The notes under the pieces were generated by a model. The model did no database searches. It saw nothing but the letters and a program-made list of their open reading frames with translations, and was not told the DNA's origin. Positions 27,294-46,541 of a DNA stretch of 64,000 bases are shown here, piece after piece (position 1 is the first letter of the stretch; the number at the start of each line of letters is the position of its first letter). The position numbers and the translations under genes are program-made. The stretch spans positions 1,674,001 to 1,738,000 of the forward strand of contig JAHBBC010000006.1 in the NCBI GenBank assembly GCA_019915015.1, read 5' to 3'. The DNA is from Auriscalpium vulgare. Taxonomy: Eukaryota > Basidiomycota > Agaricomycetes > Russulales > Auriscalpiaceae.

Positions 27294-28700
27294 GACGGGG
27301 GTAGATGTGTAAAGAACGGGCGCAAATATCAAAGACTGATGCAAGGCCCGCATCCGGAGCGAAACGGGCATCACGTGGACGCGGCACCTCAGTGCTTCGC
27401 GTAGTACACCGCCGTTCCGGCCAGAGCTTCGGAGAGTCTTCTGACGTATTCTCCCACAGATGCCAAGGCAACTCTTGCCGCATCTCCGACGAACTCTTGG
27501 AGAATCTCGGCCCCTCTTCTTACTGAAGCTTCACCAAGAGCAAGCTTTGAGAAGAGTTAGCGGGAATCTTCCACGGCTGTCTGCAGGCAGGGCATTATAT
27601 GTAGCATTTATTAGGCATTATTGGGGAGCCATAATCAGACATGTTAAACAGAAAACAATGCTGATTACTGCAAGGACTAGCTATACACACAGTAGCACAT
27701 CTTCGCAGTTATAAATACTACATCTAGGTGCATGAACTACGTGTGCGGCCACAAAGGGGCTCGGACAGGGTTGCGCCAACGGCCAACCTCGTTCGCTCAC
27801 CGTCTCCATACCCTGGCGCTCTCACTGCCTCCGCGCATTGCCGTCCCATCTCCACCTCACGCACTGCCGGTCGTTGGTCCCCGGCTTCGGTGTGTCCCGC
27901 ACCTGAAGAAAAAAGTAGAGCGTGTTAGTTAGAGTTGGCGGCCATGGCCGCTGGAACGAGTACCCAAGAAGGCAGCCAGATCCCAAAAGCCTAGCCTGAA
28001 GCGAACAGCACACAGGAAAGAAAACACTCAAGGAAGCAGCCCAGGGAGAGACCTGACCAGGACCAGACGGAGGACGAGCAGGTAGGACCAGGGTAGGACG
28101 ACGACGTTGAAGGCATAGAAGGCGAAACATGGCAAATCAACTCGCAGTCGACGCGCGTCCTGTTGACTTTCCCACGCACCGAAAATGGTCGCGCACAGAC
28201 CATCTCACAAACGCCTTGCCTTGTGACCGCCTTCTGTTGGGCTTGGGTTTACCGTTACGGCCGCGTTGCACTGTTCAATTGCGCAGCAGATAGCTCATGT
28301 TTCTCAGTTTTATCTTTATCATATGTACATAATGCTCAACAAAATTGCGTGCGCTCCGACTGCACCATCACGAAAGGCGCACCCGTGAAAGAGGAATATT
28401 GGGCACGAACCTTGTGCGGCTCAACTTGCATGTCGCAGGCCCTACGAAATAAGCCGAGACAGCGGCAAAGATGACGGCGACTCGCGCAAACAGGGGGAAC
28501 GGAGGGCGCACAGTATTAGTGCGGAAGGTGAAGGGGGTGACAGGGTGGCGGTGGTTGCGGAGGGCCCCACGGCAGAAGATTGAGAGAATTGTAATCTTGT
28601 CTAGATAGTGGCCGGAATCTTCGCGCAAGAGCTGCAAAAGCTTCAGGCCAGCTGTCGCTGTGAATGACGTGTGGAGCTTGGCCCAATTGTTAGAAGATCT
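27294..28700. other. Long non-coding stretch left of the inverted repeat
   Basis: About 1.4 kb, unusually long for this window. It includes the IDH2 promoter. Short open frames on both strands lack splice continuity or family motifs. I find no tRNA or rRNA signature. It may contain the outer part of the element bounded by the repeat at 28701. Confidence 0.4.
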
Positions 28701-28792
28701 AGTCTCGGAACCAGCCGTGGCGGAGCTGAAAAAAGACACGAAAAGACGCTCCTGAACGTCTGGCGACTTTGAACCGGCGGCACATGGATCGA
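28701..28792 (+). repeat. Left arm of 92-bp inverted repeat
   Basis: Read on the minus strand, this segment aligns without gaps to 44976-45067 on the plus strand: 78 of 92 positions match, including perfect runs at both ends (the outer run holds GGCTGGTTCCGAGACT; the inner run begins TCGATCCATGTGCCGCCGG). The arms bracket exactly the helicase and DUF6589 genes. Most differences would change amino acids if the segment were translated, so it does not look like conserved coding sequence. It could be the terminal or subterminal repeat of a DNA element. Confidence 0.8.
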
Positions 28793-29329
28793 CCCAGGCG
28801 TGACAGCGAGGTTGCGCGAGGGCCCATCAAAATCAATAGATAACGGGAGAGATAAGGCCGCGCCAGATGACTAAGCCTAGCCTTGAGCCGCCCGCTGGTT
28901 TTCACAGAGGTCGGGGCATCTACAGCTAAGACTTGAGAAGTTGGGAATAGGTAGTATAGGTCAAAAAACACATACCTACGAGAAGAAACCATAACAAAAG
29001 GTCGCGGTTTGTCCGTGAGCAATCAACTGGCCGGCGGTAACACGGGCCGGCGTGAGGCCGCTGTTGGTCCGCTCGACGCAAAACCTGCGCAGGGCGCGGG
29101 GAGCAAAGACTGAGGGCAGGGAATTGCATGGACAGTGTATTAGGTCTACAGAACATACTCAATGTATGTAAGGAGCTTGCTTTATGTTCGTACTTGCAAG
29201 AGCTAGGTGTCGCACTCGGTGTTAAGTGTCATGTGACCAGCGCGGAGCGCATAGAGTTGCTGCTGCCAGGGGGATGGGCCGTACCTACCTTTTTCGTGAA
29301 GTCAACAAGCCCCCACCTCTTTCCCTGCC
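28793..29329 (+). promoter_or_regulatory. Upstream region of the helicase gene
   Basis: 537 bp between the left inverted-repeat arm and the helicase ATG. A short block near 29234 (ATGTGACCAGCGCG) resembles one inside the right arm's flank (ATGTGTGACCAAGCGCG on the minus strand). That hints that the symmetry of the two ends runs further inward, interrupted here. No TATA box is obvious. Confidence 0.35.
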
Positions 29330-31202
29330 ATGCCAGCTCTCTCCGAGGCCGAACATCTCGCAGAAGCAGCAAAATACCAGGCCAATCTTGCCTCAGCAAG
29401 AAAGGAGGCCACTACAACTCGCAATTATAATTCTACCACCACTCGTACGCAGATAACGAACCTCTTCGCCTCTCGCTTCGATGGCAAGCAGCCATACCCA
29501 TGGCAGATTGATGTTACTGAGGCCATGATTCTTGGCCTCGACTGCACTGTGATAGCGAGCACGGGCGCCGGGAAGACGATGCCATTCGTCATGCCTAACT
29601 TCGTATACCCGAACAAGATGACGGCCATCATCTCGCCACTGAAGGCGCTGGAGGACGACCAGGCCGCGCGGTTCAAGAAAATGGGCCTCCGCACAGGTGT
29701 TGTGCAGGGAGTGACGTGGAGCGAGGAACTACGCAAGGTCAGCGCACGTGTAACGATCGAGAGCGATTGAACTTACCTCTGGACAGGAGCTGGAGCATCG
29801 TGACTACGACGTTATTCTTGCGTCACCAGAAATGTCCCTTCAACGCGGCGGAAGCTTCCGCAGCCTCTTGAGCTCGCCTTCATTCGCGAAGGACATCGGC
29901 GGCTTCGTTGTGGACGAAGCACACTGCATCTCGCAGTGGGGCCACGATTTTCGGCCGCAGTACGGTGACCTTGGCAAGCTTCGCGCATTTGCCCCTACCC
30001 ATGTCCCGATCCTCGCTGTGTCGGCGACTATGGCGCCACTTGTGCTCGAGGAGGTCCGGTTGAAGCTGGGGATCGACGCGTCGAGCTCGTTCCACGTAAA
30101 CCTAGGCAATGACCGTCCAAATATTACGCAGGAGGTACGCAAGATGAAGTCAGCAACAGACTACGCCGCATTGGACTTCCTTGTCAAAGGCGCAAGACGT
30201 GCGGAAGACTTACCGCAAGCGATCGTGTTTGTGGAAAAGATTTCACAAGCGCACGCAATCTTAAACCGCCTACGCAAGCTCGTGCCTCAGGGTCTGGAGG
30301 ATAGCATTGACCTCCTGCACGCGCGTCGGGCAGACCTGTCAAAGAAGATTTCGGTGCAGGACTACAAGAATGCACGCACAAAGATATATATTGCAACGGA
30401 GGCCGCTGGGATGGTGCGTTGCTCCGCTCGCGTGTTGCTAATGTCTGTCAACTGACGAGCCGAATATGTAGGGAATGGACATACCGGATATTACCATTGT
30501 GGTACAGTTCGGCACTCCGACAAATCTATCTGTCTGGATTCAACGTGCTGGTCGAGCGGCGCGATCCGCACTTGTACAAGGACGTGCCATAATGCTTGTC
30601 GAGGCGTCCGTGTTCCAGGAGGTTGGGGCACGAAAGGATGCAGGAAAAGATGATGAAGACGCGTCCGATGACTATGACAGCGACAACGATGAAGCACCAG
30701 GCTCGCAAGACGAAGACGAGGAAGAGAGGACTTACAAGAAGAAAGTCGAGCCTACCCTCCGGTTGTGGATTGAGACTAGCGGTTGCCGCCGCGATGTCGT
30801 GGACGACTATTTCGGGAATCCGCCACGAAAGCGTGCGTCAGGATGATTCTTTTCTGAATGCTCACATCTTAAAATTTGATCCGTCAGCTGCAACAGGACT
30901 GTGCTGCGACAATTGCGCGCGGGGATGTACAGAGTCGCGTGAAAGCTCACCAACCGATGCAATACCCGACGGTCCACGCACACCGACGCGATCACAGTTC
31001 CCTCCGGTGCCGCGTACTCCAAGAAATGCTCGCATCGTGCAACAGATGCCGCTCACGCCATCGTCACGGGCCAATGTGAACGGGAAACGCACCATGGTCA
31101 CGGGCCTAGACAGCGACAGCGCGGATGAAGGTGGCGAAGATGGAGACGGGTTCACCGATGCTGAGAGCGATTCCGGCCGTCCGTCGGCACCGTCGGCACC
31201 GC
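29330..31202 (+). pseudogene. RecQ-type DEAH helicase, 5' part (split by LTR element)
   Basis: Superfamily 2 helicase related to RecQ. Exons are 29330-29737, 29787-30413, 30472-30832 and 30897-31202. Motifs in order: Walker A STGAGKT (residues ~77-83), SPLKALEDDQ, DEAH box VVDEAHCISQWGHDFRPQY (~179), SATMAP (motif III), then GMDIPDITIVVQFG and WIQRAGRAARS (motif VI, usually QESGRAGRDG). An acidic linker and CCDNCARGC, possibly a Zn-binding element, follow. The reading frame then runs into the LTR and stops at 31342, adding about 46 unrelated residues. The remaining 3' part is at 41004-41977. Without the insertion the gene would encode about 869 aa. No other inactivating change was noticed. 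Confidence 0.85.
31199..31202. repeat. Target-site duplication, left copy
   Basis: The 4 bp ccgc just before the LTR is repeated at 41004-41007 after the other LTR. If the final A of the LTR is counted with the target, the duplication is 5 bp (accgc), the usual Ty3/gypsy size. Confidence 0.7.
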
Positions 31203-32356
31203 TGATACGCCTGCTACGCGTGTGGCTACTGTTTGCGCATTTTCGATGCACTGTGGCACTCGCACAGTGGCTCCGACCGTTGCCATGCATCCCCGACTCT
31301 ATCGTTCTCGCCGAAACACTCGCACAACAGCTAGCTCTGTAGCTGTCCGCGCAATCGTTCGCTGCAGTTCGCCGACGCTCGCTCTCACTCGCACATCATC
31401 CTACGACAGTCGCCGAAGTCACGCCACGTCCCCTGCACCCTAGTCACTCATCAGCAGTCAGACAATGTTCTCCCAAGGTCGCACCGACTCGCTATACGTT
31501 CAGGCGTGCATACACAGCTCGTGCACACTCGCACTCGACATCGCTGCTTCGCCCGAGCATCGCTACACGTTTGCATCGTTCGCCTGAGCCAGCCACGTCA
31601 TCGCCGAGGTCGCCCGACTCGTCCGAGCATCTAGAGCAATCCATCAACTGCATAGTCCGTCGGATCTTGGCCATGTCTCACATCAATTAGCCCACATCAC
31701 CGAAGCCAGAGCCATGAGATAGCAACCCCGTCCACGTCGTCGCAGTCGTTCGCCGGCGCTCGCCTGTACTCAGCGGACACAGCTGCACATGCCCGACCTC
31801 CCAGCGACTCAGAGATGCAGCGCAGACTCGCAGACCATCGAGCTATTGCCCAGTGACATCGGAGACGATCCCCGAGCCCGAGACATCAGCGGACCGGATC
31901 ATCAACCACTTCTGATGCATTGCTGTTGCATCCCGAGCATCCCGGAGGTTTCGCCGAAGATAGCATCATAGTTGCGCCTAGACCGTCGCGATATTGTCCC
32001 CTCATGTCGCAGCCGTTCGCCGACGTTCGCCTATGTTCAGCGAGCTCAGCTACACGTCTAGGGTCTCTCAGCAACTCGCCAACGATACAGTGACTTGCTG
32101 AACATCGAGATATCACTCAGCAACGCAGGAGACAGTGCCCAATCCCGAGCCATCAGTGACCCGGATCAACGACCACTTTTGACGCGGCGCTGATGCGCCC
32201 CGAGTGTCCCGGAGACTTTGCTGGAGATATCTCCGCTTTTGTGTCTAGGCCTTTGATATCTCTTCTCTCTCATTCGCTATAATTCGCCGATGCTTCGCAC
32301 GGCTTCGCTGACTGCATCGCATGACTCGTGTAGCTACTCCGACGCATTTTCCCATG

Positions 32357-32362
32357 TATAAG
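32357..32362 (+). promoter_or_regulatory. LTR TATA box
   Basis: TATAAG within ATGTATAAGTGTAG is the only good TATA box in the LTR and would put the transcript start near 32385. The 3' LTR carries the same site at 40542-40547. Confidence 0.5.
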
Positions 32363-32439
32363 TGTAGCTAGCAGTGTCTGCATGCAATAGGAACTTCTCC
32401 CCCCAGAGACAGCACCTCAAACCTCGAGAACTATCGTCT

Positions 32440-32513
32440 TTCACCTTCGCAGCGCATCGTTTAGCCTTTTTATCGACATCGACATCGCATTCACCTTCGC
32501 AGCGCATCGTTTA
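32440..32513 (+). repeat. Direct repeat inside the LTR
   Basis: A 24-bp unit beginning TTCACCTTCGCAGCGCATCG occurs at 32440-32463 and again at 32490-32513, with a 50-bp period. The 3' LTR has the same pair at 40625-40648 and 40675-40698. It lies downstream of the TATA box, in the transcribed leader. Confidence 0.85.
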
Positions 32514-32822
32514 CGCACTTGCATATTGAGAACCTTCGCCCTACCGTCGCCCATCGTCACCCAGCGTCGCCTATCGCCCCCGACCTTCGCCCTACCTCCC
32601 CGACTCTCGCTACGCCACCCCAAGCCTTGTATTGCCGCCCACACCTTTGCCGACACTCCCCCTCATCCCCCGTCGCTCGCTACACTTCCCCAGTGACAGC
32701 TGCGACTCTCCGAGCCCTCTGGTAGACCTGGGACACGCCCCCCAACTAAAACAGTACTACTCGACGAGCAGGGTTTGGTTTTGTCATCTGACCGCCTGTC
32801 CGACGAGTTTGGTCATCATTTG

Positions 32823-32840
32823 TGGAGCCCACCGCGAGGG
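32823..32840 (+). other. Probable tRNA primer-binding site
   Basis: TGGAGCCCACCGCGAG starts 4 nt after the LTR end, the expected location and TGG opening for a primer complementary to a tRNA 3' CCA end. The tRNA was not identified. Confidence 0.5.
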
Positions 32841-33283
32841 GCACTACCAGAATTCTTCCAGGACGCTCATCCTCGACTCCTCCCTCTCGTCGACATCGCT
32901 ATCCGACTCGTGTCTCGTCGCTCGCAGAGGAGCTACGTGAATCGTTCGTCGTTTGGCCCCCCAGTCCAGGAGAGCTCTTTTCCTCCGTTCCCAGTCCTTT
33001 TGCAACCCACAACAACCTCTCCGACGTCTCGCACAGCGACAGCGAGGTTCAGCAAATTTTAGGAGACCTTTCACCGTTCCCTGGAGCCGCTACACCATCG
33101 CCTTTGCATCGCTCGCAATCGCATCGCACACCCGATCGCACACCCCCGTCGCCGTCGCCACAGCCGTTATCGCCACCTCGTAATCTCACCGATCGCCTTG
33201 CATCACGTCCGACATCGTCTATCGTCAATCCACTCCCTACAACTGCCCTACCCACTCCAGTCAATCCCCTACCTCGTCGCATC

Positions 33284-35470
33284 ATGGCTACTCCCGCTAT
33301 GCCCGCCCGTGGTGATCGCACCGCTCCAACATTTACGCCCGAGCAGCCCCGATCGATTAGGCGATTTTTCGCCGACCTCGAGATCTTGTTCCTGCGTTGT
33401 GCCGTCGCCGATGGCGAAGCAAAGAAGCAATGGGCGCAGAGCTATGTCCCAATTGAAGTCGCCGACCTTTTCGACGCTATGCCCGAGTTCACCGACGCAA
33501 CCAAGACGTACAAGGACTTCAAGGAAGCCGTTGCAAAGCTCTACCCAGGAGCTAGTGAAGACAAGGCGTACTCTGTCGCCGATCTCGAGCGCTTGGTCGC
33601 TGACCGCCATCGGAGAGGCATCGCGACTATCGAAGAGTTTGCTGCGTTCCATCGAGACTTCCTAGCCATCTCCAGCTACCTCATCCGCCATCGCCGACTC
33701 TCCGACCTGCAGCAACAGCGCGAGTTCGTTCGTGCATTCCCACCCGAGCTCTGGAAGTTCGTCCATGCTCGCTTGCAGATCAAGAAACCAGATCACGAGC
33801 CTGAGGACCCGTATCTCGTCGCAGACGTTAAGGACGCAGCCAATTATGTTCTCCATGACACAGCAGCACCGTCCGTGCACACCGACTCGACCAGCATCGC
33901 CAGTTCGTCGCTAGCGTCCGCTCCAGCAATCAAGACCGAGGAGCTACTCGCTACGCTCGTCCGATCGCTCACGCAAGCAGTCCAGGCGAACGCTATCGCT
34001 CCAGCGACGTCCACCACGAATTCGCCCGCGTCCACCGACGCTCCTCGTCGAGACAATCGCTGCCATTACTGTGGCATCGCCGAGCATCGTATAGTGCAAT
34101 GCCCCACCGTCGACGAAGACATTCGCACAGGATATGTCAAGCGCAATCATGAAGGTCGTGTTATCCTAGCCAGCGGTGCCTTCGTTCCGACCTCGATTGT
34201 CGGCAGCTATCTTCGCGAACGTGTTATGGAATGGCACAGGCGAAATCCAGGCCAGCGCGCCCAAGCGCAGATGATGATCGCAATCGAACCGCTATCGACG
34301 TTCACGCTCTCCACCGACGATCGCATCGCTGCTCTCGAAGCTGAGCTGTCTGCACTGCGAGGCTCACGCGAGTCGTACAAGCTGGTCTTCGACGGCGTTG
34401 AAGTGCCCTCTCGTCGACCTGCGGCCGCAAAGCCTGCGCATAACCCAGCAGCTTCCACCCGAGACGTTCGCGCTCCAGCCACGAGCCATACGCCGCAAGT
34501 TCCCCGAGCACCAGTGCACCCTTTCGCCGAAGCACGCGACGCTACTACAGCCCCAGTCAAGCCTCGTTTCGTCCCAGCGGACCCGCCTAGACCACCGGCA
34601 AACGCTCGCGACGGTGCATACAAGACAAACGCGCCGGTACACAAGGCAGAGATTGCAGACAAAGTCTTCGCCCGCTCGATGAAAGCCAGTTCGATTACGC
34701 TCACACCCGAGGAGCTCCTATCGCTTTCGCCAGAGGTTCGCGCCAAGTACCGCGACGCCGTAACACCTCGCCGATCAGCAAATGAGCAAGTCACGTACAC
34801 TATGTCCACTTTCGACGAAGTCGCAGAAGCTGTCGTCTCGCCCGAGGCAGCTATCGCAGAAGCTGAAGCCAGGACCTTTGCCAACTTTGTCCCCGCTCCT
34901 CGCGTCATCGCACCCGATCGAAGCAACCCTCCGCCTGGTGTTTTAGTCCTCGACGACCCGTACGAATCATATCTAATGGATCTCTCGCCTGAGGAGGAGC
35001 CAAAGACCCTCACAGTCGCCCGAGAATCGGCAGCGCTTCGCTCGATCGACGCGATCATCGACAACAAGGATACAGTCGAATGTTTGCTGGACCCAGGCTC
35101 GCAGATCATATCTATGTCTGAGGAAATTTGCCATCATCTCGGTCTCGCCTACGACCCCTCGATTCGCATTCGCGTTCAAAGTGCCAATACACATTTCGAC
35201 AGCTCTCTTGGTTTAGCTCGCAACGTCCCAGTCAAAATAGCGAACATCACCATCTATTTGCAGATACATGTCATCCGCAACGTCGCCTATGACATCCTAC
35301 TTGGTCGCCCATTCGACGCGTTGACAGAGAGCATCGTGCGCAACTTCAAGAATGAAGATCAGACGATTACCTTGCGTTGCCCAAACTCGACGAGCGTGAC
35401 GACCGTGCCTACGTTCGCCCGAGGGAAGCATCGATTTCGAGTCCCCGCTGAGACAATATTCACTGCTTGA
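33284..35470 (+). CDS. Gag-protease polyprotein of the LTR element
   Basis: First in-frame ATG at 33284 (728 aa); the same frame is open from about 32822, so an earlier non-ATG or undetected start is possible. A Ty3-type capsid region begins near RRFFADLEILFLRCAV and runs past AKLYPGASEDKAYSVADLE. A CCHC zinc knuckle, CHYCGIAEHRIVQC, gives C-x2-C-x4-H-x4-C. The C-terminal retropepsin-like domain has VECLLDPGSQIISMS as active-site loop and DILLGRPFDALTES as the ILGR flap-end motif. DPGS replaces the usual D-T/S-G, a variant common in basidiomycete gypsy elements as far as I recall. The stop is at 35468-35470, inside the open pol frame. Confidence 0.88.
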   Translation: MATPAMPARGDRTAPTFTPEQPRSIRRFFADLEILFLRCAVADGEAKKQWAQSYVPIEVADLFDAMPEFTDATKTYKDFKEAVAKLYPGASEDKAYSVADLERLVADRHRRGIATIEEFAAFHRDFLAISSYLIRHRRLSDLQQQREFVRAFPPELWKFVHARLQIKKPDHEPEDPYLVADVKDAANYVLHDTAAPSVHTDSTSIASSSLASAPAIKTEELLATLVRSLTQAVQANAIAPATSTTNSPASTDAPRRDNRCHYCGIAEHRIVQCPTVDEDIRTGYVKRNHEGRVILASGAFVPTSIVGSYLRERVMEWHRRNPGQRAQAQMMIAIEPLSTFTLSTDDRIAALEAELSALRGSRESYKLVFDGVEVPSRRPAAAKPAHNPAASTRDVRAPATSHTPQVPRAPVHPFAEARDATTAPVKPRFVPADPPRPPANARDGAYKTNAPVHKAEIADKVFARSMKASSITLTPEELLSLSPEVRAKYRDAVTPRRSANEQVTYTMSTFDEVAEAVVSPEAAIAEAEARTFANFVPAPRVIAPDRSNPPPGVLVLDDPYESYLMDLSPEEEPKTLTVARESAALRSIDAIIDNKDTVECLLDPGSQIISMSEEICHHLGLAYDPSIRIRVQSANTHFDSSLGLARNVPVKIANITIYLQIHVIRNVAYDILLGRPFDALTESIVRNFKNEDQTITLRCPNSTSVTTVPTFARGKHRFRVPAETIFTA

Positions 35471-38400
35471 ACATCTCGCCGACGGAGAAGAAGTCGCCCT
35501 CATTCTAGAAGGCGACGATCAAAATGTCCGCGCTATCGCATATACCACACTCGACTCGGCGGACGAGTCTTCGCTTCAATTCGCCTATTTGACCGCTTCC
35601 GACGTTCGCTCTTTACTCCCCGATCATGCTATGCCTTCCTCTTTCACTCTATTATCTCCCGATTCCGCCCCGACTATTGCAGCAACTCGCCCAACGTTCC
35701 CTACCGCTTCTAAGCCAAATATTTGTTCGCACACTTTGCCTGAGTTCTCGCCCGATACCCCCGACCTCCCAACTCGCTCCACGTTCGCCAAGCGCAAGTA
35801 CAAACCTGTCTCGCAGAAGGTCAAGCCGATCCTAGGTTCAGTCGCAGAAGAATTTCGCATCATCCGAGACATCAAAGGAGACCCGCTCGCATCGCTACCT
35901 TATCTCCCGACACATCCGACGCCGTTTACTCCCACAGGACGCTACACACAAGAACGCAAAGGCACTGTTGATCGCCAAGAGTGCTATGCGTTCCTACAGC
36001 CAGCTGAACGCGACCTGCTTCATCATGTAATCGCAGTGCACAACGACGCATTCGCCTGGGACGACACTGAGCGAGGCAGCTTCAAGCGAGAGTTCTTTCC
36101 ACCTGTACAGATCCCTGTCGTACCGCATACACCCTGGGTACAGCGAAATATTCCGATTCCACCTGGCATTTACAAGGAAGTCTGTGCACTCATTCGTCGC
36201 AAGATGGATGCGGGCACCTACGAGCCTTCGAACTCATCCTATCGCTCTCGCTGGTTTTGTGTCGCAAAGAAAGACGGAAAGTCGCTGCGAATCGTACACA
36301 GTCTCGAGCCTCTCAACGCCGTCACAATCGCGCACTCTGGAGTCCCCCCGACGCCGGAGCATCTCGCCGAACAGTTTGGTGGTCGCGCATGCGGAGGAAT
36401 CCTCGATTTATACGTTGGCTACGACGAGCGACTTATCGACGAACGCTCCCGAGATCTCACGACGTTCCAGACGCCCTTTGGAGCCCAACGACTTGTCACC
36501 CTTCCGATGGGTTGGACGAACTCAGTGCCTATTTTCCACGACGATGTCACACATATTCTGCAGCCCGAGATTCCAGCGATTACAGTCCCCTACATCGACG
36601 ACGTACCACTCAAAGGACCTGCGACCGAGTACCCCGACGAAAATGGCAGCGCTGAAGCTATCCCCGAGAACGCAGGGATTCGCCGATTTGTCTGGGAGCA
36701 TTTCCAGAACGTCAATCGCATATTGCAGCGCATGAAGTACGCTGGAGGAACGTTCTCTGGAACCAAGTCGATCCTCATCAGCCGCGAGTTCACCGTTCTA
36801 GGACATCGATGCACACCAGAAGGACGTCGCCCCGACGACTCGACCGTCTCAGTGATCCGCAACTGGGGCCCTTGTAAAGACCTCTCGGACGTTCGCGCAT
36901 TCCTAGGAACCATCGGAGTTTGTCGCATATTCATTGATTCGTTCGCCAAACGCGCACACGTCTTGACGCATCTCACTCGCAAGGGTGTCCCGTTCGAGTT
37001 CGGACCGCAGCACATAGCAGCGCAAGAGGATCTCAAAGCAGCTTTATTAGCATCGCCAGCACTGCGCGCTATTGATTACGAGTCGCCCGACCCTGTTATC
37101 CTCGCTGTTGATTCGTCCTACATCGCTATCGGGTATATCTTAGCTCAAGACGTCGAGACACCCAAAAGGAAGATTCGCTATGTCAATCGTTTCGGGTCGA
37201 TCACGCTGAACGACCGAGAGCGTCGCTTCTCTCAGCCTAAACTCGAGATCTATGGCTTATTTCGCTCTCTGCGCACACTCCGTCTTTATTTAATCGGTGT
37301 CCGCAACCTGATAGTTGAAGTCGACGCGACTGCGATTAAGGGAATGCTCAAGAATCCCGACCTCGTCCCCAGCGCCAGCATCAACCGATGGATTCTCGCT
37401 ATCATTACTTTCCACTTTGTCCTCCGCCACGTACCAGGTATCAGCCATGGCCCCGACGGTCTCTCAAGACATCGCGACGAATCGCCAAAGCAGTCCGAGC
37501 ACGACGACGACTTCGACGACTGGCTAGACAATGTACACGGCTTCCTTCATATAATTTATCCCTCGCCTTCAGCCTTTCGATCGCGCATACTCGCCCCGCC
37601 CACCCACCCTTCGCCGATACTCGCTACGTTCTCGCAGACCGAGGACGGTCCTGAAATCAGTGAGGAGGAGGTGCCCGAGCTCAGCTACGACGACGTCCCT
37701 CGCTCCGACTCGGCGAAAGCCCACGACAAGCGCGTACAAGCAGTCCACGATTGGCACGAGAACCCAGTACGCCCAGCTCAGATGTCCGAGGCAGAATTAG
37801 CAACATTCATCCGCTACGCGACTCGCTTTTTCATCGACGACACTCGCCTATGGCGCCGCAGTCCCGACGGTGCACACAAGCTCGTAATTCAGCCAGCCAG
37901 TCGACTCAGAGTACTCGCAGAATGTCACGATCGAGCTGGACATCGCGGAATCTTCGCTACAAAATCGCTCATACAGGAACGCTTCTGGTGGCCGGCATCC
38001 GAGGCCGACATCATGTGGTACGTTCGCAGCTGCCTCATCTGCCAGCAACGCCAAAAGCGACAAGTTCTTATGCGCCCGACCGTCGCACCGCCTGCCGCAC
38101 TCTTTGCCAAGATCTACGTCGACACTATGCATATGCCGCCCTCAAATGGTTATCGCTACATCGTTCAAGGTCGCTGTTCGCTCACGCACTACCCCGAGTT
38201 TCGCCTATTGCGACGCGAGACAGCCAAAGCCATCGCAGACTGGGTCTTTGAAGATATCCTATGTCGCTGGGGTTCGCTCAGCGAGATTGTTACAGACAAC
38301 GGCGGTCCATTTGTCAAAGCTCTCGACTACCTATCGAAGAAGTACAACGTCCGACATATTCGCATCAGTGGCTACAACTCCCGAGCAAATGGAATCGTAG

Positions 38401-39122
38401 AACGTGCACATTTCGACGTACAACAAGCCCTATACAAGTCCTGCGATGGAGAACAGAATCGCTGGTCGACAGCGGCGCACACCGTTTTCTGGTCCGAGCG
38501 ACTGACGACTCGCCGTCGCATGGGTTGCTCGCCCTACTTCGCTGTTACAGGCTGCCACCCGCTGATTCCACTCGATATCTCGGAGGCGACGTACCTTCTT
38601 CCTGCACCAACATCGATCCTCTCGACCACCGATCTCATCGCGCGCCGCGCTATAGCACTGCAGAAACGACATGAACATGTCGCAGAACTTCGCTCAACAG
38701 TCTATGAACATCGGCTTGCCGCCGCGAAACGTTTTGAGCAAGAACACGCCGCTACCATCCGAGATTTCGACTTCAAGCAAGGAGCGCTAGTGCTTATTCG
38801 TCACACAGCAATCGAGAAGTCGCTGAACCGCAAGATGCGCGCTCGGTACCTTGGTCCGCTCGTAGTCATATCAAGGAACCGTGGAGGTGCCTATCTTGTC
38901 GCCGAGCTCGACGGTTCTGTTTTCGATCGCCCTATAGCAGCATTCCGAGTCATCCCATTCTTTGCACGCAAGGAGATTAAGCTCAGTCTCGACGCTATCG
39001 ACATAGACACAGCCCGACTCCGTGACCTCGAAGCCTCGCAGTCCCTAGGAGATGACGACGATCTTGAAACACTACCAATCGCCGAAAACGACGAGCCCGA
39101 TCATGCACAAGTTGAAGACTAG
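35400..39122 (+). CDS. Pol polyprotein (RT, RNase H, integrase) of the LTR element
   Basis: The frame is open from 35400 with no ATG near its start, in the +1 frame relative to gag, overlapping it by 71 nt. Expression probably needs frameshifting. Reverse transcriptase: LDLYVGYDERLIDE (motif A), PFGAQRLVTLPMGWTNS (motif B), VPYIDDVPLKG (catalytic DD). RNase H: VILAVDSSYIAIGY, SQPKLEIYGLFRSL, VEVDATAIKGM. Integrase: an H-H-C-C zinc domain (ECHDRAGHRG ... SCLICQQRQ), then the DDE triad with D at 38121, D at 38295 and E at 38400. A GPY/F-like C-terminal module (RYLGPLVVISR) follows. No chromodomain is recognised. Confidence 0.92.
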   Translation, partial: RPCLRSPEGSIDFESPLRQYSLLEHLADGEEVALILEGDDQNVRAIAYTTLDSADESSLQFAYLTASDVRSLLPDHAMPSSFTLLSPDSAPTIAATRPTFPTASKPNICSHTLPEFSPDTPDLPTRSTFAKRKYKPVSQKVKPILGSVAEEFRIIRDIKGDPLASLPYLPTHPTPFTPTGRYTQERKGTVDRQECYAFLQPAERDLLHHVIAVHNDAFAWDDTERGSFKREFFPPVQIPVVPHTPWVQRNIPIPPGIYKEVCALIRRKMDAGTYEPSNSSYRSRWFCVAKKDGKSLRIVHSLEPLNAVTIAHSGVPPTPEHLAEQFGGRACGGILDLYVGYDERLIDERSRDLTTFQTPFGAQRLVTLPMGWTNSVPIFHDDVTHILQPEIPAITVPYIDDVPLKGPATEYPDENGSAEAIPENAGIRRFVWEHFQNVNRILQRMKYAGGTFSGTKSILISREFTVLGHRCTPEGRRPDDSTVSVIRNWGPCKDLSDVRAFLGTIGVCRIFIDSFAKRAHVLTHLTRKGVPFEFGPQHIAAQEDLKAALLASPALRAIDYESPDPVILAVDSSYIAIGYILAQDVETPKRKIRYVNRFGSITLNDRERRFSQPKLEIYGLFRSLRTLRLYLIGVRNLIVEVDATAIKGMLKNPDLVPSASINRWILAIITFHFVLRHVPGISHGPDGLSRHRDESPKQSEHDDDFDDWLDNVHGFLHIIYPSPSAFRSRILAPPTHPSPILATFSQTEDGPEISEEEVPELSYDDVPRSDSAKAHDKRVQAVHDWHENPVRPAQMSEAELATFIRYATRFFIDDTRLWRRSPDGAHKLVIQPASRLRVLAECHDRAGHRGIFATKSLIQERFWWPASEADIMWYVRSCLICQQRQKRQVLMRPTVAPPAALFAKIYVDTMHMPPSNGYRYIVQGRCSLTHYPEFRLLRRETAKAIADWVFEDILCRWGSLSEIVTDNGGPFVKALDYLSKKYNVRHIRISGYNSRANGIVERAHFDVQQALYKSCDGEQNRWSTAAHTVFWSERLTTRRRMGCSPYFAVTGCHPLIPLDISEATYLLPAPTSILSTTDLIARRAIALQKRHEHVAELRSTVYEHRLAAAKRFEQEHAATIRDFDFKQGALVLIRHTAIEKSLNRKMRARYLGPLVVISRNRGGAYLVAELDGSVFDRPIAAFRVIPFFARKEIKLSLDAIDIDTARLRDLEASQSLGDDDDLETLPIAENDEPDHAQVED
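37639..37672 (+). repeat. Internal copy of the 3' polypurine-tract segment
   Basis: GACCGAGGACGGTC, a 6-nt spacer, then TCAGTGAGGAGGAG, in pol between RNase H and integrase. The same arrangement lies at the 3' PPT, 39353-39386. About 30 of 34 positions match. A central polypurine tract is one explanation; a copied segment from recombination is another. Confidence 0.6.
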
Positions 39123-39377
39123 GCACCAGTCAAACATCGCCAGGATACCCTTTCGTTTGCCAATGACTTCCCTTTATTTCCCTCTATCTGTTTCACCCTT
39201 TTCCCAGTTCATTTTGTTCATCTCACTATTCCAGAGACCAAGAAGGGACATTTTACCTATGTGATTACTTCTCCTATGCCTTCCCTTTTTGCTCCGTTTC
39301 ATCGCCACACTTCCCCGAGATCTAGGACGCACTCGCCAACGGCATACGCAATGACCGAGGACGGTCAAGACTTCAGT
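39123..39377 (+). other. Untranslated segment between pol and 3' PPT
   Basis: 255 bp, pyrimidine-rich early on (TTTCCCTCTATCTGTTTCACC). No third gene such as an envelope is present. Confidence 0.6.
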
Positions 39378-39387
39378 GAGGAGGAGA
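39378..39387 (+). other. 3' polypurine tract
   Basis: GAGGAGGAGA ends exactly at the 3' LTR start, as needed for plus-strand priming. Confidence 0.75.
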
Positions 39388-41003
39388 TGATACGCCTGCT
39401 ACGCGTGTGGCTACTGTTTGCGCATTTTCGATGCACTGTGGCACTCGCACAGTGGCTCCGACCGTTGCCATGCATCCCCGACTCTATCGTTCTCGCCGAA
39501 ACACTCGCACAACAGCTAGCTCTGTAGCTGTCCGCGCAATCGTTCGCTGCAGTTCGCCGACGCTCGCTCTCACTCGCACATCATCCTACGACAGTCGCCG
39601 AAGTCACGCCACGTCCCCTGCACCCTAGTCACTCATCAGCAGTCAGACAATGTTCTCCCAAGGTCGCACCGACTCGCTATACGTTCAGGCGTGCATACAC
39701 AGCTCGTGCACACTCGCACTCGACATCGCTGCTTCGCCCGAGCATCGCTACACGTTTGCATCGTTCGCCTGAGCCAGCCACGTCATCGCCGAGGTCGCCC
39801 GACTCGTCCGAGCATCTAGAGCAATCCATCAACTGCATAGTCCGTCGGATCTTGGCCATGTCTCACATCAATTAGCCCACATCACCGAAGCCAGAGCCAT
39901 GAGATAGCAACCCCGTCCACGTCGTCGCAGTCGTTCGCCGGCGCTCGCCTGTACTCAGCGGACACAGCTGCACATGCCCGACCTCCCAGCGACTCAGAGA
40001 TGCAGCGCAGACTCGCAGACCATCGAGCTATTGCCCAGTGACATCGGAGACGATCCCCGAGCCCGAGACATCAGCGGACCGGATCATCAACCACTTCTGA
40101 TGCATTGCTGTTGCATCCCGAGCATCCCGGAGGTTTCGCCGAAGATAGCATCATAGTTGCGCCTAGACCGTCGCGATATTGTCCCCTCATGTCGCAGCCG
40201 TTCGCCGACGTTCGCCTATGTTCAGCGAGCTCAGCTACACGTCTAGGGTCTCTCAGCAACTCGCCAACGATACAGTGACTTGCTGAACATCGAGATATCA
40301 CTCAGCAACGCAGGAGACAGTGCCCAATCCCGAGCCATCAGTGACCCGGATCAACGACCACTTTTGACGCGGCGCTGATGCGCCCCGAGTGTCCCGGAGA
40401 CTTTGCTGGAGATATCTCCGCTTTTGTGTCTAGGCCTTTGATATCTCTTCTCTCTCATTCGCTATAATTCGCCGATGCTTCGCACGGCTTCGCTGACTGC
40501 ATCGCATGACTCGTGTAGCTACTCCGACGCATTTTCCCATGTATAAGTGTAGCTAGCAGTGTCTGCATGCAATAGGAACTTCTCCCCCCAGAGACAGCAC
40601 CTCAAACCTCGAGAACTATCGTCTTTCACCTTCGCAGCGCATCGTTTAGCCTTTTTATCGACATCGACATCGCATTCACCTTCGCAGCGCATCGTTTACG
40701 CACTTGCATATTGAGAACCTTCGCCCTACCGTCGCCCATCGTCACCCAGCGTCGCCTATCGCCCCCGACCTTCGCCCTACCTCCCCGACTCTCGCTACGC
40801 CACCCCAAGCCTTGTATTGCCGCCCACACCTTTGCCGACACTCCCCCTCATCCCCCGTCGCTCGCTACACTTCCCCAGTGACAGCTGCGACTCTCCGAGC
40901 CCTCTGGTAGACCTGGGACACGCCCCCCAACTAAAACAGTACTACTCGACGAGCAGGGTTTGGTTTTGTCATCTGACCGCCTGTCCGACGAGTTTGGTCA
41001 TCA
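39388..41003 (+). repeat. 3' LTR (1,616 bp)
   Basis: Same sequence and length as the 5' LTR. It ends in CA and is followed by the second target-site copy. Confidence 0.93.
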
Positions 41004-41007
41004 CCGC
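41004..41007. repeat. Target-site duplication, right copy
   Basis: ccgc, matching 31199-31202. Confidence 0.7.
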
Positions 41008-41977
41008 GCGTGGCCAAACGACGAGCAGGGAAGCACCTAGAGCGTGTTCGCGATGCTGTAATGAGATGGAGCATCCGAACACGACGCACCAAGCACCCGT
41101 ACGCCGTGTTCACAGCTGCAGGCCTGCTTCCCAAGCGCAACCTCACGACAGTCGCCTCTCAGCGGAAGCCGCGCACTGTTGACGAGCTACGCGAAGTCCT
41201 CAACCCGCCGTGGCCATTGTTGGATATGCACGGGGAGTCCGTCCTTGAGTTGACGAAGGGCTTGGATGATGAAGACATTGAACGGCGGCGCATTAAGACT
41301 CTTGCAGCTCGAGAGGCGAAGAAGGCAGTTACAGCAGCGCGGAAGGAACGTGAGAGGGTGGCAAAAGCAGAGAAGGCAGAAGTTGCGCGCGAGAAGAAGA
41401 GGACACGCCAGCAAGAGCAGTACGCAGAGTACGTCCGGGCCAACTGGCCCGGCGTCAATCTACAAGACGCTCGCGCATCAAGCGCCCAATCGAACACTCT
41501 GCCTCACCCGAGCACCTCACAGACGCCAACACTCGCCGGGCCCTCTTACACTTCTCAGCAAACGCCTGGCATCCCACGATTCTCGTTTTCTCAATACGTT
41601 GCTCAAGGCGAGGCGCGACACACAACGCCGGCTGAGCAGCCTGCAGGACCATTCCACACCCCATCTGCGCCATTCGGAACCGCAGCAATCATGTCGCCCT
41701 ACGCTCTGCAGACAATGCCAACGTGGCCTGGATCTCAAGCTCCTTGGCCTTATTATCCAAGTCCGTACATGACACCTGCACCACCACAGGATCACATTGG
41801 CCCGTGGTCACCCGTCATGACGCCTCTTTTGCCGCCCTCATCGCCCACACAAAGCTATGGACATCACCGGAGTGAGAAGGAAAACACAGGTATGTAATTG
41901 TAAGGCTATGACATGTGTCTCTTTCTGTGCTAACACTTTGTTGAATTGTAGGCTCGCCGTCTCGACGAAGCCGATGA
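41004..41977 (+). pseudogene. RecQ-type helicase, 3' part (split by LTR element)
   Basis: Continues the helicase frame exactly once one target-site copy is discounted; the first whole codons read VAKRRAGKHLERVRDAVM. The region is basic, then coiled (EAKKAVTAARKERERVAKAE), then disordered and Pro/Ser/Gln-rich, a tail that probably holds no enzymatic motif. Intron at 41890-41951 (GTATGT...TTGTAG); last exon 41952-41977 ends SPSRRSR and TGA. It has no own promoter evident. The stop codon lies 4 nt from the stop codon of the convergent DUF6589 gene. Confidence 0.8.
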
Positions 41978-41981
41978 CGCG

Positions 41982-44845
41982 TTACCATCCCCCGCTGTCA
42001 ACATCCATCGCATCAATCTCACTGGTCGGACTGCCTGTAGCTTCTCGTGTAGGCTCGTCTCGATCCCCATTGTCACTCCCGTGCACGGATCCCTGCATAG
42101 CCTCGCACCATTGCTCCAGCGACCACATATCGGTTGTTGCGCGGGGGTATTCGCGCCGCTCTTGCCATGCCGGCATCAGCTTTGTATTCACATATGTCCA
42201 CCCCTTCGTTGTGGTATCAATAGCTTTGTCCTTGTCGCTGGTTTTGCGCCTCTTGGTGAAAGCATGAATTTTCGCCTCTGTATAAATCTGCTCCAGTTTG
42301 TCGACATCGGCCTCGCTCTGTGGGCTTGTGTGAGACACGCCTCGCCTCAAGGATGGAAACAAGGTTTCGAAGTGCTGGCGTATAAATCGCACACGAGGAA
42401 TCGCGGGCCCGCGCTTGTACAGCAGATCCCAACCGGCATTCGGGCCTTGGCTGCGGTAAGTCACCTGCTGGCATGTCAGGGATATCTCTTCCTCAGGCTG
42501 CGGCACATCATACTGACCTTCACATCTTTCACATTGTGCTCCTGCGCCATATCGACCGGTAGGAAGCTATCCCGATGCCCCTTCATATTGACTAGCCATG
42601 CTCTTTCGCGCACAAAGGTACTAACAAACATATTATTCAGCGTGCCCACATGTGAAACACCTCAAACGCACCTCAATTCCTTGGGCCACTCGTGGTGCAA
42701 AGACTGCAAGAGCTCAAGTACTTCATTTGCGTACTTGTGGTTGCCGCCGCCAGCAAAACGACACAGCAGGTACGGTAATGTGTCCTCCATACTCCCGGTA
42801 TCGCCAAACTTGATCGAATGTCGCAGCTCGATGTACCTTAAGACGTCACGGTTCCATATTATTGAGTTGCTGAGTACGTCGTCACGTTCTTTGTCGCCCC
42901 ATAACATCATGTTCTCTAGTGCGTGATTTGATGCAAAGTCGTGAACAACTTTCTCCGCAAGCGCCACGAGTTCCGCAGGCGACTTTGAACGGAGCTCAGA
43001 AAGATCGCTGACCTTGCCGACAGTCTTCCACGCTGCGCGGAATCGTGCCTGAGCGCAGTGTAATATGAGCTCGTCAAGGTGATGGTAGAACGGTCCCTTC
43101 GTCTGCACATAGGCTAAACCTTTGCGTTCAAGATTTGTCATTGCATGAAGGAGGCCTTTCCCAGATACGGTCCCAAGGAACTGCTTGTGCAACGAGTTGG
43201 CGAAGGCAATCTGGAGGTGAAACCACCCGAAGACGGGCACGATCCAGTCCAGGCGGTCGAAGCTGTTGTGGTCCCGGCTTCGGTAGCGAATAAGGCCGCG
43301 CAGACGCTCGACTGTCAGCTGGTCGCCGATCCAGATGAAGAGGCGTTCATTTCCGGTACGTTTGCGCTCCTCCTCCGATGCCAGCCCCAACTGTCCGAGC
43401 CACTCTATGATCAGCTTCTCATTGCCTTCATAACTGGCCTCCTCTTGGTGAACGGTGCGCATCACATTTTCGTGGACAACATGCTCGGGGCCGTGCGGAA
43501 GCTGATGAACGGGAGACGGTGGTTGCAGCAGGGGGTCATTACGTCCAGGATACCCGGCGCGGTTGAATGCTGGGGCGTCGAGCAGTACCTCTAGCACATG
43601 ATGGACCTCGGCCTTGTGATAGCGCTCTCCGCCCTTCTCCTGAAGCTCGAGAAGCTCTTCAGCAGTAATCGGCGTCTTGCTTCCTGCCTTGCGCGCAGCC
43701 TGGAAGTCTGCATTCGAGATAGCGGGTTCGCCAGACGGTGCCTTCAGTTTTGAGAACAACGTGCCCGCAGTTCCTGAGTCGAAGTGAGTTTTATTGTGCT
43801 CGCGTTGTTCGAATGCAGTGAAGGCGATGTTGATATTGTCGTGAGAGAAAATGAAGGGCAGGTCTTGCACAATCTGCCTCGCCTCCCGCATAGCCTCCTC
43901 GGAGATCACTTCAAAGGCGCGGACACTCCATCGGTGGCTCATGGTTACCCCAACTGCGTGCAGAAGGTCTAGTCCTTTGGCGGGCAATCCAATCCCCTTG
44001 AGGTAGACTGTGAGCAGCTTTGGCCAATGATTGAGATGCTGATTTTGCGTGAATGCGATCTGCGAGACAAGCATGAACGCGATCTACGTGACCTCAAGGT
44101 AAGAATAATGCTCAACCCAATGAAAAGACAACCAGCGCACCTTTTCGGGGTCTTTCCTGCTTTTAACACCTGAATCGGCGCTGCGATGGCCGAGGACACG
44201 CGTAAGGACGCTCCACAAAGTCGGCACCCCGTCCGCGCTGCGCAGACTCTCGATCTTCTTCTCCAGCGAGAATTCAGCTAGACTCTTCTCCGAAAGCGAG
44301 TCAGGAGGTGAGCGCAGAATATCTTGTGCGCGCTCCAGCTCCTGATCAATTACATCGCCCAGGTGCTCGATGGCAAACTTCTGCATGGGGGCAGAAGCGG
44401 CACCTGCCCGTGCGTCGTGGCTTCCAGAGGTGCGCGGAGGACGGCACCAGCGCGCGATGATGCCTGGGAGCTCTTTACTGACCATCAGCCCCGTTCTTTC
44501 ATAGCGGATTTTGCTGTCCTCTATACAGCCCGCGTCGCCCCAGCTCACGGCATCTAGGAGGAAGGGAAGGTTCATGCCCTTGCTGTCCATATAATTGAGG
44601 ATATCTCGGGCGACCTCAGCAACATTTCCCGTGAAGTTGTCTCTAAGCTGTTGCGTGCGCTTCAACTGTATAGGGTCGACAGGATAGATCGGCGGAGGTG
44701 GAGGTGCGGGAGGTGGAGGAAGGGGAGTCTCGGGCTGCTCGTCGTCGGAAAATTGGTCGCTTTCGTACTGTTCTCCATATAGTTGCTCAAATAAGTCTTC
44801 GTCCTCTTCAGTGAAGATGTCGAGAGCTTCTTCCGTGGAGTCCAT
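41982..44845 (-). CDS. DUF6589-family protein
   Basis: Exons 44141-44845, 42672-44059, 42518-42602 and 41982-42464 give 886 aa in frame. An acidic N-terminus (DIFTEEDEDLFEQLYGEQ) and a Pro run lead into the conserved block I know as DUF6589, found in multicopy agaricomycete proteins of unknown function. Conserved-looking acidic positions are FSHDNINIAF (D~309), HFDSGTAGTLF (~329), FIWIGDQLTVERL (~481) and DRLDWIVPVFGWFHLQ (~506-516). The C-terminal part has WLVNMKGHRDSFLPVDMAQE followed by a basic and then acidic tail. The spaced Asp residues could form a nuclease or transposase active site, but I cannot show that. It is tail to tail with the helicase. Confidence 0.78.
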
Positions 44846-44975
44846 TACTGTGAACAAACGGCAGACGCGGCGCCGGCGCGGCGTGCATATTGATGTGACG
44901 CGCAAACGCGCTTGGTCACACATCATAATCTCCGTGCTATCAGTGACTACTAGTGACTATCAGTGACAATGTCAC

Positions 44976-45067
44976 TCGATCCATGTGCCGCCGGTTCAAA
45001 GTCCCCAGACGTTGAGGAGTCTCTCTTCGCCTTGTTTTTCGACTCCGATGCGGCTGGTTCCGAGACT
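44976..45067 (-). repeat. Right arm of 92-bp inverted repeat
   Basis: Inverted partner of 28701-28792, 131 bp upstream of the DUF6589 start codon. Similarity ends sharply inward at TCGATCC. Outward it persists only as a shared AGATCTT a few bases further on. Just inside lie short direct repeats of AGTGACTA and a small hairpin (AGTGACAATGTCACT at 44961-44975). Confidence 0.8.
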
Positions 45068-45078
45068 ATAGAAGATCT

Positions 45079-45407
45079 TGAGCGAGAATCTTGTCCAACT
45101 GTAGGACTCGAGGATCTCGGAAAGATGCGGTCGGGTTGGCGGTGGTAGTAGTACTACTACCACGGCGCCCGCGCCTTCCCAGACTTGCTTTGTTACTAGT
45201 GCCTCGAACTAGTAAAGTAGCGGCTTTGCGGTGGAAAGAAATCACAGACATAGAGCATCGTACTGGTCTACAGGTCATGATTATAGAATCAAATAGCACA
45301 TCGACATTGCAACATATCTCAAAGCGCGGCGATGGACATATCCAGGCGAATAGGCCGACGTACCGTCAAATCCTCGAGCGGAACGACTGGGACGGAAAGA
45401 AACAGAA
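45079..45407. other. Spacer with palindromes, right flank
   Basis: 329 bp between the inverted-repeat arm and the VPS24 3' end. It holds the 22-bp palindrome at 45142-45163 and a hairpin with 8-bp arms (TTACTAGT / ACTAGTAA) at about 45194-45216. A short plus-strand frame through the repeat ends at 45148 and is not credible as a gene. Confidence 0.6.
45142..45163. repeat. Perfect 22-bp palindrome
   Basis: GTGGTAGTAGT joined to its exact reverse complement ACTACTACCAC, with no spacer. Confidence 0.95.
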
Positions 45408-46270
45408 TTAACCGCTGAGGAGTCCGTTGAGTTGTTCTCGATATTGCTCCATGACTCTCTCCGCCTCCTCATCCTCCAGATTTGCCTGAGGTGTCTGTAA
45501 ATGACGATATGAGCACGTGGCTGGCTCTAGAAAACATCATACGCACAGGTAGTTCAGTCCGTACGGCATCGACTTGACCGAGCTTGCCGTCCGTTAGGTC
45601 AAAGAGGACCTTATCGACCTCTGCGTCCGCTTCCTCCTCGAGCTCCTCATCCTCTTCGACGTCCAGGGTACTGTCCAACATCTCTTCCATAATGCCAGCC
45701 TAGGTACAATATATTATATGTCAGTTAACGGCCGCAGGACGTATGAATGCTTGCCTTCGTCATTTCCATGCTCATTTCCCGCATGGTCGCGCTGATTTGG
45801 GGTAGCTTGATCAGGCTATTTGAGAGTTTCATTATCTCAGTGGATTTCTGCAGCGACCCTGTCACTTTGGCCATGGCTTCAACAGAACTCGCGTTAGCAG
45901 CATGATGTTGAACAGCGGACAAGTGGCGCACCAAGTTGCTGCGAAAGTTGATTGCCTATCGACCCTAGCCTCGCCTTGCTCACGGACAGTCGATCCTTTT
46001 GCTTATCGCTTCGAACGACCTCGCGTGCCAGTATCCGCGCAGACTTGACATCTCCCTTCTTTGCGAGCTGCTTGACAGTCTGTCGGGCCTTGTTCGTTTC
46101 AACATCGAGCTGTGCCATCGTTCAGCTGCGATCCTGCATTTCAGGTCCAGAAGCCCAACCTGCCTCATCTCTCGATCGAGCATGCGGGTTTCTTGACGCA
46201 GCTTTGCCTGCCAGGCGCGAACCTTCTCTTCAGGAGTCGGTCCATACAGAAAGCGGTTGATGGATTGCAT
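45408..46270 (-). CDS. VPS24: ESCRT-III subunit Vps24/CHMP3
   Basis: Snf7-family ESCRT-III protein that polymerises on endosomal membranes during multivesicular body sorting. MQSINRFLYGPTPEEKVRAW opens helix 1, with basic residues for membrane binding; then KQLAKKGDVKSARILAREVV, KVTGSLQKSTEIMKLSN, LPQISATMREMSMEMTKAGI, an acidic stretch and a C-terminal helix (ERVMEQYREQLNGLL) as MIT-interacting motif. Exons 46160-46270, 45932-46109, 45755-45876, 45547-45699 and 45408-45494 give 216 aa. The intron at 45700-45754 uses a GC donor (AAG|GCAAGC), required to preserve MTKAGIMEEM. Confidence 0.93.
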
Positions 46271-46541
46271 GAGAAGAGGAAGATGAGCCTGACTACCTGA
46301 GTGATAGCCTGCTGCGCAAGTGCTAGAATTCTGTATTTGGAATTGGTCGGTCGGTTGCACAGCCACACAATCATCTACTATGTTGGTCTTCACATTCACT
46401 AAACACTACGAAGAAGCACTTCCGGGATGGTATTGAGAGCTTATACAGCACTATAATACAGAGACTTGAGGAGCGACAATTACAGCAATAAAGTTCGGAA
46501 AGCAGATCGACGTATCGTACAATACAACGGTGAGCAAGGAT

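Follow-up and report, generated by a model that had tools for sequence, protein, structure and literature searches.

A helicase and DUF6589 gene pair in Auriscalpium vulgare marks a DNA transposon that is most likely an AcademH element

We analysed a 64,000-nucleotide stretch of the Auriscalpium vulgare genome (assembly GCA_019915015.1, contig JAHBBC010000006.1, positions 1,674,001 to 1,738,000; hereafter the window), in which a RecQ-family helicase gene and a gene for a DUF6589 protein lie between inverted repeats. We are confident that the pair belongs to a DNA transposon with terminal inverted repeats (TIRs), for which AcademH is the most likely lineage and in which the DUF6589 protein would be the DDE transposase and the helicase an accessory protein. 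The element has defined ends, 9-bp target site duplications (TSDs), empty sites and deletion derivatives, and its two genes have diverged together. A previous sequence-only reading had proposed that the pair moves or moved as a unit, which the ends, TSDs, empty sites and paired arms bear out. It had also called the unit undescribed, which is probably wrong, since the helicase and the 9-bp TSD match the described AcademH lineage and the element is thus probably of a known kind. Genome-wide searches cover the source assembly (51.6 Mb, 96 contigs), whose contigs carry the C-numbers used below.

Results

Ends, target site duplication and empty sites

The inverted arms around the gene pair are 93 nt each and match at 79/93 positions; they had been recognized as inverted copies before, with limits that fell one base short at each outer end. 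In 100 mononucleotide shuffles (window positions 41004-46000) the best match of an arm was 51/93 and the mean 40, and the next-longest inverted pairs within 28500-45300 are 30 nt long at 70%. Directly outside both arms stands TAGAAGATC, an exact 9-bp TSD, which fixes the outer ends and the target duplication that had been left open. From TIR to TIR the unit measures 16,369 bp, or about 6.6 kb, as estimated earlier, once a nested long terminal repeat (LTR) retrotransposon of about 9.8 kb is subtracted. The coordinates of all features are given in Table 1.

The element sits in a dispersed host repeat that ends near position 45144. The 700 bp to its left occur in four other copies elsewhere in the genome at 99-100% identity across their full length, and these copies are empty sites, in which the left flank joins the right flank directly over a single TAGAAGATC and each is identical to the joined flanks of the window at 101/101 bases. 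The sequence-only reading had proposed to look for strains with an empty IDH2-VPS24 interval; the empty sites found are paralogous rather than allelic. The arms might instead stem from a segmental inversion or border a non-transposing unit, with a coincidental match of the flanks, a reading for which nothing beyond the bare inverted repeat speaks. The exact TSDs, the four exact empty sites and the shifted-flank controls of a TSD-anchored scan (0, 0, 0, 0 and 2 matches) leave it next to no probability, and a segmental inversion is refuted by the empty sites.

Table 1. Features of the window element and its surroundings (window positions)
Feature	Position	Strand	Remarks
Left flank	28000..28699	.	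Piece of dispersed host repeat; right piece 45069-45144
Left TSD TAGAAGATC	28691..28699	.	Identical to 45069-45077
Left TIR, 93 bp	28700..28792	+	Starts TAGTCTCGGAACCAGCC
RecQ-family helicase, N-terminal part with introns	29309..31202	+	DEAD and Helicase_C; truncated by the LTR element
Gypsy-like LTR retrotransposon	31203..41003	+	Right limit approximate; inside helicase gene; inserted later and foreign to the DNA transposon
Probable remainder of helicase gene	41004..41897	+	No Pfam/NCBIfam domain; assigned by position and strand only
DUF6589 gene, several exons	41982..44956	-	Outer limits approximate
DUF6589 main exon, 473 amino acids	42662..44083	-	Predicted DDE-transposase-like core
Candidate acids of DUF6589	D 43838-43840, D 43322-43324, E 42722-42724	-	Adjacent E 42713-42715
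Right TIR, 93 bp	44976..45068	-	
Right TSD TAGAAGATC	45069..45077	.	

Copies that share the arms

The arms match the genome at 27 places; within the window the only two matches are the arms themselves, as had been noticed before. Dispersed single arms are ruled out, since 26 of the 27 matches fall into 13 inverted pairs. Eight pairs delimit copies of 1370-1378 bp that are 99.2-100% alike over 1778 alignment columns, 200-bp flanks included, and a ninth, on C4, contains an LTR element. All nine have the same flank and the same TSD, AGCCAGCTA, and are therefore treated as a single insertion that was multiplied within another repeat. As the likeness extends to the flanks, the host repeat of this derivative has itself recently spread or been duplicated.

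The 1377-bp form is an internal-deletion derivative that retains both ends of the window element and parts of its two genes, with 83-86% identity to it. A derivative of 1720 bp on C19 has a helicase fragment, its own TSD and 87-97% identity to the window element, and C73 and C5 carry a 102-bp end pair with the same flanks, counted once, in which the TSD agrees at 5/9 positions at the motif-defined end. Since such derivatives lack intact genes, the machinery can act in trans. Among the 13 arm pairs there is no second copy that combines the 93-bp arms with both intact genes. Further copies had been expected; both genes within exact 9-bp TSDs do recur elsewhere, with ends other than the 93-bp arms.

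Diverged families with related ends

A terminal motif found in 155 kb of scaffolds was used for a genome-wide pattern search and for the TSD-anchored scan; an earlier TIR/TSD scan without the motif had returned merely tandem-repeat or chance matches at C51. The pattern TAGNCTCGKNMCCAGYC, built from elements already seen, has 78 matches genome-wide, of which 26 were not followed, against 2 for the reversed pattern. The elements end in TAG...CTA (TAG[N]CTCG), with the 93-bp TIR in the window family and short TIRs in the others, and those at C23, C51, C7, C49 and C20 enclose both genes between exact 9-bp TSDs, as other families with related short ends.

Of 18 distinct sites, 15 have exact 9-bp TSDs, which vary in sequence; two of these, C51 and C7, come from a scan that requires a near-exact TSD, and the unbiased figure without them is 13/16. 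The exact duplications are TAGAAGATC (window), AGCCAGCTA (1377-bp group), GGATATGTA (C19), GCGTTGTTC (C1), AATTAGCGG (C9), GACTTTCTG (C23), GAAGATACC (C49), CGGTAAAGT (C20), CGGGAATCT (C13), CCAATCTTG (C21), GAGCAAACC (C4), GAGACTACC (C13), CCACGCCGC (C20), GGCTGGCGC (C51) and GTCGAGACC (C7). At the other three sites the flanks agree at 8/9 (C6, 19682-27978), 5/9 (C73/C5) and 3/9 positions (C25); C14 has the same flank as C49, is the same insertion and is not counted separately. The copies on C1 and C9 are identical over 2133 bp and differ in their TSDs, and blastn of the two flanks (640 and 503 bp) against each other gives no match, which indicates recent movement. At C4:2217377-2217896 two derivatives of 254 and 257 bp lie head-to-tail, with GAGCAAACC at their junction and at both outer ends, and at C20:906423 and C20:908250 two left ends lie in tandem, with an identical TSD and about 23 bp of shared flank in front of each.

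The duplications also bear on other transposon classes (papers are cited by PMC number, from extracts of their text). An assignment to hAT was rejected, with 9-bp TSDs at 15/18 sites against the usual 8 bp (PMC12730594), and so was Helitron, which has neither TIR nor TSD, since both are present. Kolobok transposons duplicate TTAA, and the 9-bp TSDs of varied sequence found here largely refute an assignment to KolobokH, the Kolobok lineage that has acquired a RecQ helicase. KolobokH, a DDD/E transposon, resembles our elements in carrying such a helicase and in its hosts, being described as known only from fungi (PMC9587614). Its helicase is reported downstream of the transposase domain (PMC9587614), whereas the two genes here lie on opposite strands, and we consider this assignment highly improbable.

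Pairing and co-divergence of the two genes

The genome contains 43 matches to DUF6589 (PF20231), grouped here into 25 loci. A helicase match lies within 10 kb of 12/25 loci and within 20 kb of 17/25, figures that are lower bounds given the helicase matches used; 3/25 loci are more than 90 kb from one, and 5/25 are on contigs without any (C35, C8, C4:1036108, C40 and C43). The helicase-less loci are possibly decayed copies or domesticated genes. Eleven pairs are less than 2.7 kb apart, and the twelfth, C38:48903, is separated from its helicase match by another DUF6589 locus. The expectation of one orientation in every copy did not hold, with seven of the eleven pairs tail-to-tail and four head-to-head. 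Related ends and TSDs enclose genes that are head-to-head at C49, C14, C20 and C6:20-28 kb and tail-to-tail at C23, C51, C7 and in the window; the two genes have changed their orientation to each other from one family to another.

Pairwise identities of the helicases and of the DUF6589 proteins are closely correlated (Mantel r 0.976, 10 pairs, 0/10000 permutations as high), down to 24% (helicase) and 17% (DUF6589) between the least alike families. For three of these ten pairs (C2:1548343, C38 and C2:1772208) no TSD-bounded ends were found within the available flanks; C12, C16 and C37, which are in separate pieces, were left out of the end search. The helicase and DUF6589 frames occupy nearly the whole of the elements at C51 (5722 bp) and C7 (5760 bp), and none of the seven further frames scanned at C51, C7 and C23, all of them larger ones, has a Pfam family. 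Both genes could instead be passengers, carried by a TIR transposon that is moved by a transposase encoded elsewhere, as the action in trans and the modest fold match of DUF6589 (below) would allow. Against this, the two genes recur together, co-diverge to the identities just given and take up almost the entire length of two complete elements, with no Pfam family in the seven further frames, and we judge the passenger reading very unlikely.

DUF6589 as a candidate DDE transposase

The DUF6589 call made earlier is confirmed (PF20231 against the main exon, E 1.3e-98), and four frame pieces of the window gene span 771/781 positions of the relatives' profile. AlphaFold models of DUF6589 proteins have pLDDT scores of 90 and 87. 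In VIA-align, the top 31 rows for the P0001 model and the top 12 for the window open reading frame (ORF) are DDE transposases or RAG. The best structural matches are the hAT (Hermes), P element, RAG1 and Transib transposases, at 5-10% identity in the structural alignments. These elements are not known to have a helicase gene. The candidate catalytic acids are conserved among relatives (D281 58/61, D453 61/61, E653 58/59), and among loci of this genome D281 is kept in 15/15, D453 in 19/19 and E653 in 11/16, among them every one of the seven two-gene elements that have ends.

Two results weigh against a DDE transposase: Foldseek returned no match to the DUF6589 models at E 0.001, and the third acid varies among the paralogues of this genome, as the last count shows. 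One DUF6589/helicase family (C2:1552962-1554149 and C38:41690-42839) keeps D453 and has no acid at either third position; no ends were found for it, and it is possibly inactive or co-opted. A search of the PDB with the DUF6589 sequence profile gave two matches at E <= 1 (0.026 and 0.53), both unrelated. The predicted fold points to DUF6589 as the likely DDE transposase, which would attach to the TAG...CTA ends and make joins with a 9-bp stagger.

A search for relatives scored 7997 candidates, with 270 at E <= 0.001 (120 listed), and a second search gave 115. The named relatives are Agaricomycetes. None outside Agaricomycetes is among the named matches listed, in a search that needs shared 5-residue words and so does not imply absence; PF20231 has no match in any of 14 control genomes.

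Helicase, nested retrotransposon and neighbouring genes

The earlier helicase call is right: the protein has DEAD and Helicase_C domains and is of the RecQ family; intron borders of the window gene were read by eye. TIGR00614 (recQ_fam) matches the C49 copy at E 9.9e-32 and the window exon at E 4.1e-24, both below the curated full-length cut-off, and there are PDB matches to WRN, RecQ and BLM. Multicopy RecQ helicases are also described at fungal subtelomeres (PMC4522978); compared by description, those here are likewise multicopy, with the difference that they adjoin DUF6589 and several lie inside TSD-bounded elements.

The LTR retrotransposon recognized earlier between the two genes has identical LTRs (31203-32818 and 39388-41003, 1616/1616) and aspartyl protease, reverse transcriptase RNase H and integrase zinc-binding domains. 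Since it splits the helicase gene, the window copy would be mobile only with a helicase from outside or without one. Its family is multicopy, one LTR having 58 matches genome-wide. Two LTR matches of the same family lie between DUF6589 and the helicase of the C37 pair (C37:273368-282872), the second stopping at the helicase match; an insertion preference is possible.

To the left of the element, the proposed IDH2 neighbour does contain an isocitrate dehydrogenase domain (Iso_dh). VPS24 as the right neighbour is unconfirmed, the one ORF examined (45980-46405) having no Pfam family at E 0.001.

Discussion

AcademH was reportedly defined by Kojima in 2020. In the extracts cited, AcademH TSDs are 9 or 10 bp and those of AcademX 3 or 4 bp (PMC10045372), a RecQ helicase is present in Academ (PMC3627910), and AcademH occurs at low copy number in Basidiomycota, Ascomycota and Mucoromycota (PMC10799480); putative non-autonomous insertions of Mutator-like elements (MULE) and of Academ occur widely in Marasmius oreades (PMC8290104). 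Compared by description, the elements here agree with AcademH in their RecQ/superfamily 2 (SF2) helicase gene, 9-bp TSDs (15/18 sites), TIRs and basidiomycete host.

A separate superfamily could work like AcademH, with a RecQ helicase and a 9-bp TSD and a DUF6589 that is not homologous to Academ. The assignment to AcademH is by the features just listed rather than by transposase sequence. Pfam lists DUF6589 as of unknown function, and the literature searched, a scope that excludes the paper defining AcademH, neither mentions 'DUF6589' nor links it to a transposase. KolobokH moreover illustrates that another superfamily also acquired a RecQ helicase (PMC9587614). TSD length, helicase family and fungal hosts nevertheless agree with AcademH as far as the extracts describe it, and we regard a separate superfamily as unlikely. 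It would be a superfamily of its own outside Academ, marked by a DDE transposase whose helical insertion resembles those of Hermes, P and RAG, a RecQ helicase, TAG...CTA ends and 9-bp TSDs, and present throughout Agaricomycetes under the label of a domain of unknown function.

For an AcademH-like transposon, we propose that the DUF6589 protein would bind the TAG...CTA ends, excise the element, by cut-and-paste rather than a copying route, and insert it at another site through cuts offset by 9 bp, which would leave the 9-bp target duplications. hAT and RAG1 use a hairpin step, and a similar step may occur here. The co-inherited helicase probably unwinds or processes the transposon ends or helps in gap repair, as its kinship with RecQ proteins suggests.

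The transposon family is real, well delimited and probably of a known kind; what the analysis adds is the likely transposase role of DUF6589, together with the compact two-gene elements. A Pfam family that occurs commonly in Agaricomycetes and has no assigned role would thereby gain a likely function, and the delimited 5.7-kb elements suit tests of the role of RecQ helicases in DNA transposition. If the reading is true, many DUF6589 proteins and the RecQ-like helicases adjacent to them would be transposon genes rather than host genes, with consequences for gene counts and for claims of helicase expansion.
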